Shown one piece after another: positions 5,113 through 10,691 of a stretch of 35,650 nt of DNA. The DNA is from a virus. A model generated the notes under the pieces. That model was not told the DNA's origin. It was given only the letters and a program-made list of their open reading frames with translations, and did no database searches. The stretch spans positions 1 through 35,650 of the IMG/VR virus record IMGVR_UViG_3300030118_004050; one strand, written 5' to 3'. Position 1 is the first letter of the stretch; each line of letters begins with the position of its first letter. The position numbers were made by a program, and so were the translations under genes.

Positions 5113-5485
5113 CGTTGAAAATCACACCTTCTGAAAGGGCGTCAAGAATACTTCGACTTAACTTGTCAACATCGCCTACACGGGAAGTGCAGTGCTTAGG
5201 TGCTGCAGGTTTCAGTTGACCGTTGGTGCGAAAATGATTTTTTGGTCTGGCAAAAACAAACGTTGCTGTGACTGCCATTGGCTTATCCAGTATGGCATAC
5301 CAGTCGTGAGGGAGCAAGCCCAGCGCAGTGTGCTTTACGTCTAAGCGCCATGGCTTAACCCTGTCAGAGGATTCAACCATGACGCCTTTGCCGATATGTC
5401 TTTTACTGCCCTGCGGCGCAGGTTTGCCAAGAACAGTAAAAGTAAACGAATTACAGGCGGGAGAAGTGTTCGTCGATTGCACCAT
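5018..5485 (-). CDS. rusA: RusA-type Holliday junction resolvase
   Basis: The protein of 155 residues starts its domain with a strand and GKPAPQGSKR (residues 20-29), then an FVFARPKNH strand and the RusA signature GDVDKLSRSILDALSEG followed by FNDDAQV. Aspartates near residues 105, 107 and 125-126 match the three metal-binding Asp of RusA. The enzyme cuts four-way junctions to resolve recombination and replication intermediates before packaging. ATG 5485 was chosen over the TTG one codon upstream; the gene overlaps both neighbours (34 nt upstream, 95 nt downstream). A sigma70-like promoter is embedded in its coding region at 5289-5317. Confidence 0.9.
   Translation of the reverse strand: MVQSTNTSPACNSFTFTVLGKPAPQGSKRHIGKGVMVESSDRVKPWRLDVKHTALGLLPHDWYAILDKPMAVTATFVFARPKNHFRTNGQLKPAAPKHCTSRVGDVDKLSRSILDALSEGVIFNDDAQVISLNASRRYANDSEQPCAIITVTAIS
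5289..5317 (-). promoter_or_regulatory. Internal sigma70-like promoter in rusA with palindromic core
   Basis: On the minus strand: -35 TTGCTC (5317-5312), 17-nt spacer, -10 CATACT (5294-5289) with an upstream TG (extended -10), predicted start near 5282. It contains CTGGTATGCCATACT, identical to the promoters at 9383 and 9695, with the palindrome GTATGCCATAC at the -10. It would boost transcription of the annealing protein, ribbon-helix-helix protein and ssb. Confidence 0.5.
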
Positions 5486-7354: not shown

Positions 7355-7519
7355 GTGCCAGAACTAGAACAGATCACGAACACTCGCGTTTTGATAGACC
7401 CAAGGGTGATAGCTGAAATTGACCGCAAAAAACCAATTGGTGTCACTCGCACAGGCTGGGTGAACCTGTTGCTGCAAAAAGCCATAGCCTCAGAACCCGA
7501 GCCGCTTTCGCGTGACTAA
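7355..7519 (+). CDS. Ribbon-helix-helix type DNA-binding protein, divergent gene
   Basis: A 54-residue protein from GTG 7355: MPELEQITNTRVLIDPRVIA, then EIDRKKPIGVTRTGWVNLLL and QKAIASEP. Strand (TRVLID), helix (RVIAEIDR), turn (KKPIGVTRTG) and second helix (WVNLLLQKAIA) match Arc/CopG repressors. It is the first rightward gene behind a divergent promoter block, the usual place for an autoregulated switch protein. It overlaps the next gene by 8 nt. The fold is likely; the operator target is inferred. Confidence 0.7.
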   Translation: MPELEQITNTRVLIDPRVIAEIDRKKPIGVTRTGWVNLLLQKAIASEPEPLSRD

Positions 7520-7883: not shown

Positions 7884-9393
7884 CGAAGAAGATGCCCTGC
7901 GTCGTTCTCAACTTTTGCGGCTTTATGCCGATGAAGTTGGGCTTCCCATAACGGAAAAAACAGCAGCAATTTTATTGCTGCGGGCGCAAGGTGCAGTTTC
8001 TGGTGTCTGCTTGCCGCGAATGCGTGGCGAAAAAATGGACACAACCCCAACGCCTTGGGCGTGGGAAGGTGTCATTATGGCAGGCACTTTTAACCTGCTT
8101 GTAGCGCCACCAAAGGTGGGTAAGTCTGCACTGATGGTAGGGATGATCAGTGCATGGTTTCACGGTGAAGAATTTTATTTAGGGCAGCGATTGCACGGAA
8201 ATTGCCCAAATATATATATCGTCGGAACAGATCAACCTGAAAGCGATTGGCACACGTTGTTCAAACGTGAGGGTTTAGTTGATCGCGAAGGCAACATGGC
8301 TGGACCTGTTGAAATGCTTTGGCACACAGGAGCGCCTTTGCATCTCACAGAAGGTGGGATTGCGCATCTTGGTGAGATAGCCAAAGCAAACCCTGGATCA
8401 TTTTTTCTGCTGGACAGTTATCACAGCTGTGTTGCTGCTCTCGGAATAGACGAGGCAACCTCAGCATTTGATGGCCCTGCAAGGCAGCTAGCAGAGGCTC
8501 TAGCACCTCATAAAGCCACGCTGGCAATGATCCACCACACCAACAAAAGCGTGAGCGGTGGCAACGCAACTAATGCCAGCAGAGGCAGCAACGCTTTGCC
8601 TGCAGCAGCCAGCCTCACAATCCTCATGAACTGGTTTAAGCAGCCTGCTGAGGGCCAGACACAGAACGATTATCGCGTGGTCTTGAAGACACAAGGCAGA
8701 GCCAAGGGAACAACGCTTCTTATCGAGCTGCAAGACGATGGTTGGATTCACCATGGTGATGGCGAAAGCGTATTGGCTGCAGAAGCCATTCAGGAGGCTT
8801 CAGACGAGCTGCAAGGGCGTCAAGCGGACATCTTTGACTATCTGTGCGACAGATGGGCAGCAGGAGAGTTTCCGGTTACGACGACAGAACTGCAGGACGT
8901 AGCCAAGTGCAATGCAAGCAAGGTCAACCGTGCTTTGCGTGCGCTGGAGAAAAAGTCGCTTGTAAGGCAGCAAGGACAGCTTGAACCTTTGGTTTCTGGT
9001 GGCCGTCCTCAGCTTCTGTGGGTTCCCAATACCCCCTCCTTGGAAAATGGGGAAATAAGGGGAACAAGGGAAACAACCTCGCGCGCGTCATACGAAATAA
9101 GGGGTTATTCCCCTTATTCCCCTTGTTCACCTACTTCTGGGGGAGGGGTAACTGAGGGGTTTTTACCCCCTACCCCTGGAACACCTGTGGAGCTGCATCG
9201 AAACGGTGCCTGGAGCAACGGATGGGTTGTTGTTGACGCAAGCAATGCCAACAGCGTCAGGGCAGCAAAACTGGGCAACTCCAACATCACTGTTGGATCA
9301 CTGCGATGGGATCTGGATGTGCGGCTTTGTCAATCCAGCCCGTTTAGAGCAGCACCTGAAACATCTGATACATCAGACCTGTTTGACTTCTGA
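7807..9393 (+). CDS. RepA/DnaB-like AAA helicase with winged-helix tail
   Basis: From ATG 7807 the protein has 528 residues. An N-terminal helical section (about 1-75) is followed by a RecA-like core with Walker A APPKVGKS (about 100-107), Walker B FFLLDS (Asp about 203) and a MIHHTNKS sensor motif (about 241-248). Next come a SRGSNALPAAAS loop and a winged-helix section (about 340-400). The layout fits the AAA_25/RepA helicases that unwind DNA at phage and plasmid origins. The C-terminal 120 residues are low complexity and encoded by G-run repeats at 9054-9127, followed by a small SH3-like stretch (VELHRNGAWSNGWVVVDAS). No primase or polymerase is visible, so the host probably supplies them. 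Confidence 0.82.
   Translation: MIPESLKDHKELLNRLEHHANIVLSNEEDALRRSQLLRLYADEVGLPITEKTAAILLLRAQGAVSGVCLPRMRGEKMDTTPTPWAWEGVIMAGTFNLLVAPPKVGKSALMVGMISAWFHGEEFYLGQRLHGNCPNIYIVGTDQPESDWHTLFKREGLVDREGNMAGPVEMLWHTGAPLHLTEGGIAHLGEIAKANPGSFFLLDSYHSCVAALGIDEATSAFDGPARQLAEALAPHKATLAMIHHTNKSVSGGNATNASRGSNALPAAASLTILMNWFKQPAEGQTQNDYRVVLKTQGRAKGTTLLIELQDDGWIHHGDGESVLAAEAIQEASDELQGRQADIFDYLCDRWAAGEFPVTTTELQDVAKCNASKVNRALRALEKKSLVRQQGQLEPLVSGGRPQLLWVPNTPSLENGEIRGTRETTSRASYEIRGYSPYSPCSPTSGGGVTEGFLPPTPGTPVELHRNGAWSNGWVVVDASNANSVRAAKLGNSNITVGSLRWDLDVRLCQSSPFRAAPETSDTSDLFDF
9054..9127 (+). repeat. Five 9-bp repeats AAYAAGGGG within the helicase gene
   Basis: Units on the plus strand: AATAAGGGG at 9054-9062, AACAAGGGA at 9063-9071 and AATAAGGGG at 9096-9104. 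On the minus strand: 9110-9118 (CCCCTTATT) and 9119-9127 (CCCCTTGTT). Units 3 and 4 face each other as a perfect 9-bp inverted repeat with a TTATT loop. Further G and C runs continue to about 9180. Iteron-like spacing inside a replication gene suggests an origin or regulatory site; this is untested. Confidence 0.6.
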
Positions 9394-9411
9394 TGGCTGG
9401 TATGCCATACT
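9383..9411 (+). promoter_or_regulatory. Sigma70-like promoter with palindromic extended -10
   Basis: -35 TTGACT (9383-9388), 17-nt spacer, -10 CATACT (9406-9411) preceded by TG, predicted start near A9418. The core CTGGTATGCCATACT recurs at 9709-9723 and inside rusA. The -35 overlaps the end of the helicase gene (stop 9391-9393). It drives the small gene at 9448. Confidence 0.65.
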
Positions 9412-9420
9412 TAATTCATC

Positions 9421-9432
9421 GGGAGAGATCCC
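9421..9432 (+). other. Leader hairpin with GNRA loop
   Basis: GGGA-GAGA-TCCC forms a 4-bp stem with a GAGA tetraloop three nt after the predicted transcript start. A 15-nt AC-rich leader with ACCTC follows before ATG 9448. No Shine-Dalgarno site is present in that leader. Confidence 0.5.
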
Positions 9433-9447
9433 ACAGCCTCAAACCTC

Positions 9448-9681
9448 ATGATCATCGAACGCATTGAAACTGGTCTTTGGACCGCTACCCACAATGGTCA
9501 AACCATCGGTGGCATTTACACGCAAGACGGTGACGGCTGCATAACCCAGCATGTTGGTGGCGGCAGAACCTATCAAGCTGTTTTTCGTCCTAATCCTGAA
9601 TCAGAAGGGTTTTGCTTCGAAGGCAACCTTCGCGCTTGCAAGAAATGGCTGAATGATTGGGCAGGCTTATTTCTTGCTTGA
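9448..9681 (+). CDS. Small beta-rich protein of unknown function
   Basis: A 77-residue protein, MIIERIETGLWTATHNGQTI, continuing with GGIYTQDGDG, TYQAVFRPNP and a C-terminal ACKKWLNDWAGLFLA helix. The alternating pattern suggests a small beta-sheet domain capped by a helix. It has its own promoter and a GNRA-hairpin leader. No family recognised. It is the first of five short genes between the helicase and the terminator at 11286. Confidence 0.7.
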   Translation: MIIERIETGLWTATHNGQTIGGIYTQDGDGCITQHVGGGRTYQAVFRPNPESEGFCFEGNLRACKKWLNDWAGLFLA

Positions 9682-9694
9682 CTTTGGCTAGGGG

Positions 9695-9723
9695 TTGCCT
9701 TTTAACTCCTGGTATGCCATACT
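9695..9723 (+). promoter_or_regulatory. Second copy of the palindromic promoter
   Basis: -35 TTGCCT (9695-9700), 17-nt spacer, -10 CATACT (9718-9723) with upstream TG, predicted start near A9730. From CTGGTATGCCATACTTA through TCATCGGGAG it is nearly identical to the promoter at 9383, including the predicted start region, so one copy probably arose from the other. Confidence 0.65.
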
Positions 9724-9732
9724 TATGTCATC

Positions 9733-9752
9733 GGGAGGCGGGGACGCTTCCC
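9733..9752 (+). other. Leader hairpin with GNRA loop
   Basis: GGGAGGCG (9733-9740) pairs with CGCTTCCC (9745-9752) over 8 bp with one G-U pair, capped by GGGA, a GNRA loop, at the predicted 5' end of the transcript. CAACACCTCAA follows before ATG 9773. Likely a 5' stabiliser or protein-binding site. Confidence 0.55.
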
Positions 9753-9772
9753 ACACCCAACACCTCAAGACA

Positions 9773-10048
9773 ATGTTCCAACGCATCTTCGACACCGAGA
9801 CTTTCAACCCTGCTCTCGGCTTCGCTACCTGCCTCGAAGAAAACGTCGAGACCATCGGAGTTAAAGGCGGCTTCTTTATCGAAAAGGTGACTGTCCGTAA
9901 GGCAGCTGTTGACAGTCTGCACAACACCTGGACCAAGCACGTTGAGACCCGTTTCGTGCTTCGCGACATGGCTACCAACGAGCTTCAGATCAGCGGCACC
10001 CTTGATCGCTGCTTCGCTCACATTGACGCCAAGCTTCTTGCCGCCTAA
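9773..10048 (+). CDS. Small alpha/beta protein of unknown function
   Basis: The 91-residue protein starts at ATG 9773 (MFQRIFDTETFNPALGFATC). The open frame upstream to 9695 covers promoter and leader and is not coding. The sequence has regular strands (GGFFIEKVTVRKA, TRFVLRD) and an amphipathic helix, and no membrane segment. It has no Shine-Dalgarno site and follows a hairpin and an AC-rich leader, so expression is probably controlled by this leader design. No family recognised. Confidence 0.7.
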   Translation: MFQRIFDTETFNPALGFATCLEENVETIGVKGGFFIEKVTVRKAAVDSLHNTWTKHVETRFVLRDMATNELQISGTLDRCFAHIDAKLLAA

Positions 10049-10058
10049 TCACACTTAC

Positions 10059-10076
10059 GGCCCTGGAGACAGGGCC
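10059..10076 (+). other. Intergenic hairpin with GNRA loop
   Basis: GGCCCTG-GAGA-CAGGGCC is a perfect 7-bp stem with a GAGA tetraloop between the genes at 9773 and 10098. No T tract follows, so it is not a normal terminator. It is followed by CAACACCTCAA before ATG 10098, repeating the hairpin-plus-leader design; it may also mark an RNA processing end. Confidence 0.6.
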
Positions 10077-10097
10077 ACCACCATCAACACCTCAACT

Positions 10098-10340
10098 ATG
10101 GACGCATTTACTCAAAGCCTTGACCTCTTCGAGTCTTTTGAACGCTTTCAAGACAAGCTAGAAGCCGACAACCTGCTCAAGCTTCAAGACATGAAGCCCG
10201 CCACTCGCTACTACGTCGAAGCATCACTAAACGGCAACCTTCAATGGACTGAGTGGGCTTATAACCAAGATGAGCTTGATCTCTTGATTGCAGATGCAAA
10301 AGACTCCGGTTGCTCTTACACCGTGGAGTCGGTCAAATGA
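10098..10340 (+). CDS. Small acidic helical protein of unknown function
   Basis: An 80-residue protein from ATG 10098: MDAFTQSLDLFESFERFQDK, then LEADNLLKLQDMKPATRYYV and LDLLIADAKDSGCSYTVESVK. It is acidic, with a helical first half and an alpha/beta second half. The frame open upstream to 9909 is a shadow across the previous gene. The leader has no Shine-Dalgarno site but contains CAACACCTCAA as at 9758. The stop overlaps the next ATG (ATGA), coupling the pair. Confidence 0.7.
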   Translation: MDAFTQSLDLFESFERFQDKLEADNLLKLQDMKPATRYYVEASLNGNLQWTEWAYNQDELDLLIADAKDSGCSYTVESVK

Positions 10341-10586: not shown

Positions 10587-10628
10587 ATGTCGGGGAGCCT
10601 GATGCCTGACTTTCCCCCAGCAGGCTGA
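10587..10628 (+). CDS. Possible 13-residue leader peptide
   Basis: ATG at 10587, only 4 nt after the preceding stop, opens MSGSLMPDFPPAG followed by TGA. It runs through the 5' strand of the closing stem and the first inner hairpin of the structured RNA. Pro-Pro shortly before a stop can slow ribosomes, so it could couple translation to RNA folding. No Shine-Dalgarno site of its own; highly tentative. Confidence 0.25.
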   Translation: MSGSLMPDFPPAG

Positions 10629-10691
10629 AAGCTATAAAATACCGAAAGGGAAGGCAGGGCAGCTTTGAGGTGCTGATCTATCCCCCGACAT
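10587..10691 (+). ncRNA. Structured leader RNA, three-way junction type
   Basis: ATGTCGGGG (10587-10595) pairs perfectly with CCCCGACAT (10683-10691), closing about 105 nt. Inside, AGCCTG (10596-10601) pairs with CAGGCT (10621-10626), and AAAGCT (10628-10633) with AGCTTT (10661-10666). A small CC-GAAA-GG hairpin (10642-10649) lies inside the second arm. A pseudoknot between TTCCC (10612-10616) and GGGAA (10648-10652) is possible. It lies in the leader of the 177-residue gene at 10744. I do not recognise a known riboswitch or cyanophage RNA class, and base pairing was judged by eye only. Confidence 0.5.

Follow-up and report, generated by a model that had tools for sequence, protein, structure and literature searches.

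The closest described counterparts of the promoter-hairpin-leader cassette reported here, which occurs in a whole IMG/VR viral contig of 35,650 bases (IMGVR_UViG_3300030118_004050, hereafter the window), are the promoter-early stem-loops (PeSLs) reportedly set out in Arbiol 2010 and Comeau 2014. In the excerpts available of later sources, PeSLs are promoter-terminator composites of T4-like myoviruses and have been proposed as recombination points (PMC4503421, PMC3950731). One of these excerpts also describes a conserved promoter-like box plus inverted repeat before many open reading frames (ORFs) of the haloarchaeal virus HGTV-1, in that case with an archaeal TATA-type promoter and no report of a covarying RNA hairpin (PMC3950731). 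Cluster K mycobacteriophages carry repeated elements just upstream of the starts of different gene families: SAS, a fixed asymmetric 13-bp GGGATAGGAGCCC of unknown function beside the start, and ESAS, 17-bp inverted repeats (PMC3203893). Hairpins at the extreme mRNA 5' end stabilise the ompA, papA and T7 gene 10 messages, each of these being a single-gene leader, and the lambda nut/boxB site of phage leaders includes a short hairpin whose loop is GNRA-like.

The cassette resembles T4-type PeSLs, as far as the excerpts describe them, in combining promoter and stem-loop within one short intergenic unit that borders small exchanged genes and precedes unrelated ones. It differs from the same descriptions in that the hairpin lies past the -10, at the predicted RNA 5' end, lacks a U-tract and is followed by a leader and start codon, which leaves the terminator half of a PeSL without a counterpart. 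The GNRA loop, covarying stem, AC-rich leader and probable operator are further differences from PeSLs as there described, and the carriers are siphoviruses rather than T4-type phages. The cassette works like T4 PeSLs and the HGTV-1 motifs, yet is not a PeSL. Nor is it SAS/ESAS, which comprise neither promoter nor GNRA hairpin (PMC3203893); GGGATAGGAGCCC was not met beside the start codon in any module sequence. The single-gene stabilising leaders, with which the cassette would share its predicted 5'-terminal position, differ from it in turn: here the stems are interchangeable and form a family around one constant loop. No earlier description of the cassette was found in the literature searched, which did not cover the original PeSL papers (Arbiol 2010, Comeau 2014).

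An initial annotation had placed in the window two promoters with shared motifs, each followed by a GNRA-loop hairpin and an AC-rich leader devoid of a Shine-Dalgarno (SD) site, and a third gene (10098) with the same layout lacking a promoter. All of these were found where it had put them (Table 1). The three loops are indeed GNRA, with the correction that hairpin 2 exceeds hairpin 1 in length and has a GGGA loop. The extended -10 of both promoters is TGCCATACT, both spacers are 17 bp, and 9383-9425/9695-9737 forms the strongest direct repeat in the window (43 nt, 81% identity). GGTATGCCATACTTA is exact at both promoters (four window matches with up to three mismatches, versus 0.49 expected), TCATCGGGAG occurs exactly twice in the window, and CAACACCTCAA, which the annotation had reported as identical at 9758 and 10085, occurs in the window at exactly these two positions. 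Hairpin 1 alone folds no better than shuffled sequence (z = -0.74, compared with -2.25 and -3.77 for the others), so its significance rests on comparison with relatives.

That comparison strongly supports the architecture of the cassette, and with it the annotation's view of a modular leader: the promoter-hairpin-leader order is kept in dozens of related phage contigs. An exact GGTATGCCATACTTA search of viral contigs returned 91 stretches. From these and the other fetched loci, 90 distinct TGGTATGCCATA[A/C]T sites were collected without requiring a hairpin, and a GNRA hairpin stood at the correct distance in 62 of them, versus 0.375 in shuffles. The remaining 28, judged by eye, comprised seven modules with a pentaloop (GAGAT) or imperfect stem, two RusA coding copies and 19 unrelated sites. 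Requiring an AC-rich leader and an ORF gave 65 modules from 46 IMG/VR loci, which carried the hairpin in 60/65 cases, CCTC in the leader in 59/65 and TTG in the -35 in about 90%. As the operator letters were fixed by the search, operator identity in this set is no evidence of conservation; the hairpin, -35 and leader do count. Counted from the operator's first base, the stem began 20-24 nt downstream in 59/60 modules; were transcription to begin 6-8 nt after the -10, as predicted, the stem would follow the expected start by some 0-4 nt.

The association was also recovered starting from the genes. A GNRA hairpin lay upstream of the ORF3 family in 30/56 distinct regions (1.3 expected) and of the ORF2 family in 6/10 (0.23 expected). 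The remaining regions included starts abutting the stop codon of the previous ORF, short 3-bp hairpin versions (GGA-GAGA-TCC) and other leaders (L095, L100). In the latter two contigs (L095:6190-6262, L100:3460-3533), ORF2 was preceded by another start cassette, CATACT..TCAGTTC..CAACCACCCCA-ATG, with no hairpin. The promoterless hairpin of the window, with a GAGA or GAAA loop, was present in 24 contigs. Across relatives the stems were of the GGGA, GCCG, GCGG, GGCG, GGGG, GGAGG and 8-bp types, and the loops GAGA, GGGA, GAAA or GAGAT.

The stem clearly covaries around its GNRA loop, a mark of RNA-level selection on the hairpin. In an alignment of 26 distinct GAGA-loop hairpins, selected without a pairing requirement and omitting the GAGAT forms and L044 (shortened 3' arm) because these could not be lined up without gaps, 99.0% of stem cells were paired, compared to 71.6 ± 3.1% in shuffles and at most 56% in slid controls. 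Stem cells changed on both sides numbered 27, versus 9.0 ± 2.0 in shuffles. No window hairpin leader matched Rfam at the gathering score; a weak DUF3800-XI match at 9726-9752, scoring 16.6 bits where the cut-off is 37.8, was taken as chance.

Table 1 Cassette components, neighbouring ORFs and downstream RNA in the window.
Feature	Position	Strand	Description
Promoter 1	9383..9411	+	TTGACT -17- CATACT, extended -10 (TGcCATACT); layout recurs in 65 modules of related contigs
Probable operator TGGTATGCCA, copy 1	9398..9407	+	Inverted repeat TGG..CCA, overlaps -10
Hairpin 1, GGGA-GAGA-TCCC	9421..9432	+	-6.1 kcal/mol; ~3 nt from predicted start A9418
AC-rich leader 1, ACAGCCTCAAACCTC	9433..9447	+	
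ORF1	9448..9681	+	77 aa; no known family; one homologue, in L156
Promoter 2	9695..9723	+	TTGCCT -17- CATACT, extended -10
Probable operator TGGTATGCCA, copy 2	9710..9719	+	Second copy, at promoter 2
Hairpin 2, GGGAGGCG-GGGA-CGCTTCCC	9733..9752	+	-15.9 kcal/mol; most frequent type in relatives
AC-rich leader 2, ACACCCAACACCTCAAGACA	9753..9772	+	
ORF2	9773..10048	+	91 aa; no known family; four or more leader types precede its homologues
Hairpin 3, GGCCCTG-GAGA-CAGGGCC	10059..10076	+	Promoterless, intercistronic; about -16 kcal/mol
AC-rich leader 3, ACCACCATCAACACCTCAACT	10077..10097	+	
ORF3	10098..10340	+	80 aa; no known family
Conserved structured RNA (candidate class)	10588-10690	+	Between ORF3-type genes and TerS; ~103-117 nt; ~500 nt downstream of cassettes

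The module leaders were mostly 15-21 nt long and consisted of 40% A, 43% C and 6% G. The final 20 nt of the window's cassette leaders held 0-1 G and no SD-like 4-mer, in which most other window genes differ. The predicted unpaired probability of the last 15 nt plus AUG was 0.78 in native modules versus 0.56 with the 5' untranslated region (5'UTR) shuffled (native higher in 57/60); other genes of the window (n = 27) gave 0.46. From the low G content and high unpaired probability, G appears confined to the closed hairpin and the start left open. SD-less initiation is common among the window genes, so the annotation's suggestion of unusual initiation was only partly right; what stands out in the cassette leaders is that they are nearly G-free and open, not that they lack an SD. 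The alternative half of that suggestion, RNA stability, fits best as the presumed function. An SD concealed within the hairpin was rejected, the leaders having no SD-like sites.

Beyond the initial annotation, three features emerged: a probable operator, shuffling of leaders between genes and a larger structured RNA downstream. TGGTATGCCA lies in the spacer, not over the -10, in L094 (fetched by its ORF2), L161 and L165, and the hairpin-leader occurs behind promoters without TGGTATGCCA in five contigs fetched by hairpin plus leader alone (L157, L159, L160, L162, L164); L101 likewise has the hairpin-leader behind another promoter. The two are therefore separable elements, and TGGTATGCCA behaves like an operator. 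In eight contigs (L008, L048, L068, L115, L124, L134, L141, L149) the region from -35 to -10 holds the operator in tandem, as GGTATGCC..GGTATGCC spaced by 11 bp, an arrangement that suggests cooperative binding. Some upstream module halves hold the -35 in the loop of an inverted repeat (GAGGGTTGACGCCCTC, e.g. L006:670-700); an inverted repeat around the -35 with a stem of at least 5 bp was found in 38% of modules versus 10% of shuffles. GGTATGCCATACT also occurs at window 5287-5301 (-) within the rusA reading frame, where it encodes WYAIL, and likewise in L049. It was rejected as a third module, given the RusA coding frame and no hairpin or leader downstream. It may be there by coincidence, or the promoter motif may derive from it. 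A 54-aa protein encoded at window 7355-7519 (+), ribbon-helix-helix-like by eye and conserved in 19 loci, was considered as the operator's regulator and set aside: it is missing from 4/6 longer IMG/VR operator contigs (G001, G002, G003, G006), and G005 encodes it but has no operator.

The same cassette precedes many different genes. The first-collected 56 modules stood before 34 unrelated small-ORF families, and the stem differed between occurrences in seven of the 13 families found repeatedly. Relatives of ORF2 follow four or more leader types; in L096, ORF2 lies downstream of the large terminase gene (its TerL C-terminus recognised by eye). Longer contigs held 0-4 operator copies. The isolate S-CBS3 has two, one of which precedes the hairpin CCGGG-GCAG-CCCGG, whose loop is not GNRA, and the leader ATTCATCACTCAGACC. 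The annotated start of S-CBS3 gp38 appears to fall inside the TGGTATGCCATACT promoter (L166:4999-5060, NC_015465); the true start is likely the ATG following this leader. The window's own TerL shares 75-81% identity with its counterparts in phages of Synechococcus (S-H1, KBS-S-2A) and Prochlorococcus (MED4-184/P-HS2, MED4-117); as these relatives are cyanosiphoviruses, we assign the window to a cyanosiphovirus of picocyanobacteria. PeSL carriers, in the excerpts cited above, are T4-type phages, in contrast to these siphoviruses with TerL near S-H1, KBS-S-2A and P-HS2/MED4-184. No operator copy was found in S-H1, KBS-S-2A, MED4-184 or MED4-117. The strict module pattern had no cyanobacterial match among 84,980 prokaryotic species; a host origin was set aside, as the only matches were three unrelated metagenome-assembled contigs, taken as chance.

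For these observations we lean, by a small measure, towards a portable cassette for 5' regulation in siphoviruses of picocyanobacteria that joins an operator-bearing promoter, a 5' hairpin against decay, an open leader and gene swapping. A host-type sigma-70 promoter would bear the operator TGGTATGCCA, read by a phage or host regulator, and all cassette genes, sharing operator and regulator, would therefore form one regulon. Transcription would begin 0-4 nt upstream of the hairpin, 5' ends at A9418 and A9730 being plausible from promoter spacing. The hairpin would then cap the RNA 5' end and slow 5'-end-dependent decay, namely 5' sensing by RNase E and 5'-3' digestion by RNase J, and, by sequestering G-rich bases from the G-poor, AC-rich leader, could permit ribosomes to start without an SD. 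Between cistrons, the promoterless hairpin and leader probably stabilise or insulate the downstream cistron, and the short homologous cassettes may act as recombination points for swapping small genes. Cyanobacteria possess both RNase E and RNase J, the latter including 5'-3' exonuclease activity (PMC10989914). During infection by cyanophage P-SSP7, host RNase E rises (PMC9692554), and antisense RNAs are believed to protect the transcripts of the phage (PMC9692554; PMC10989914). A 5' hairpin is plausible as a second shield. If the hairpin does protect, it would offer cyanophages a route besides antisense RNA for coping with the rise of RNase E in infected picocyanobacterial cells. It would also serve expression work in cyanobacteria as a compact 5'UTR part. 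The shared start cassette further marks small unknown phage genes, usually judged one by one, as a probable single regulon, makes it possible to call small ORFs and correct their starts, and suggests how such genes are gained and swapped.

Several points weigh against this reading. RppH, which triggers 5'-end-dependent decay in E. coli, is without a close cyanobacterial homologue (PMC10989914). A 4-bp hairpin is modest, some homologues have no hairpin (L095, L100 and 26/56 ORF3 upstream regions), and the 54-aa candidate regulator does not co-occur with the operator. Any stable hairpin would serve for plain 5' protection, for which a conserved GNRA loop is unneeded, leaving room for a specific binder; as the constant loop exceeds what protection needs, a loop-binding protein is the main rival. 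The GNRA hairpin would then be a tag for an RNA-binding protein, either a lambda N/boxB-type antiterminator or a translational regulator, and the cassette genes an RNA regulon, which we regard as unlikely though a real contender. The loop (GAGA, GGGA, GAAA, pentaloop GAGAT) is more conserved than the stem, as mere stability does not require, and the cassettes point into the operon leading to the small terminase gene (TerS) and late genes. The promoterless hairpin, GCCCTG-GRA-CAGGGC, presumably also resembles lambda boxB. However, stem sequences vary freely within one genome, inspection by eye showed no conserved boxA-like element ahead of the promoterless hairpin in the window, L094, L161 or L165, both in contrast to lambda nut/boxB, and no candidate protein turned up, there being no known N-like protein here and no search having been aimed at one. 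A broader version, in which the constant loop on interchangeable stems labels an RNA regulon bound by one phage or host protein and the downstream structured RNA (Table 1) is part of that circuit, perhaps working in cis as an antitermination RNA at the late-operon entrance, appears doubtful.

One leader before unrelated genes, one gene before different leaders, and ORF2 after TerL in L096 and upstream of TerS elsewhere would suit a purely DNA-level, PeSL-like recombination site for gene swapping in which the hairpin is incidental. We consider this improbable, since compensatory stem changes and GNRA loops reflect RNA selection that lowers DNA identity between cassettes, and the hairpin position is fixed relative to the promoter. 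That the hairpins are attenuators or terminators is very unlikely: small GC-rich hairpins in a 5' leader can pause polymerase and the inverted repeat over the -35 is enriched, but there is no U-tract after the hairpin, which speaks against a terminator role, the window hairpins were absent from a terminator scan and the ORF starts 15-21 nt later. A chance likeness between the promoters, with small hairpins unrelated to each other, would agree with the unexceptional stability of hairpin 1, but has a negligible probability and is refuted by the promoter-first and gene-first counts, the covariation and the promoterless copies.

The cassettes are flanked by a RepA-like ATPase gene on one side and the terminase genes on the other. 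The order RepA, cassettes, ORF3, structured RNA, TerS is common to ~50 contigs, with local gains and losses, and in relatives ORF3 lies behind the same hairpin, behind a full module or immediately after another ORF. The ORF1-ORF5 proteins had no clear family in PHROGs, Pfam, NCBIfam or PADLOC.

The structured RNA downstream of the cassettes is strongly conserved and a candidate new RNA class that merits separate study. It comprises a P1 stem (GTCGGGG/CCCCGAC), covarying P2-P4 and the invariant CTGAAAGCTATA and AAGGCAGGGC; it had no Rfam match and was found by pattern in 57 IMG/VR stretches, at no more than one copy per longer record searched. In its alignment 99.4% of cells were paired, with 49 double changes compared to 16.4 ± 2.5. 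Divergent copies occur in Prochlorococcus phages MED4-184 and MED4-117. In MED4-184 the copy and the convergent rusA overlap at the end of that gene, which disfavours a riboswitch for the next gene. A shorter form is present in L101, L157, L159, L160, L162 and L164.

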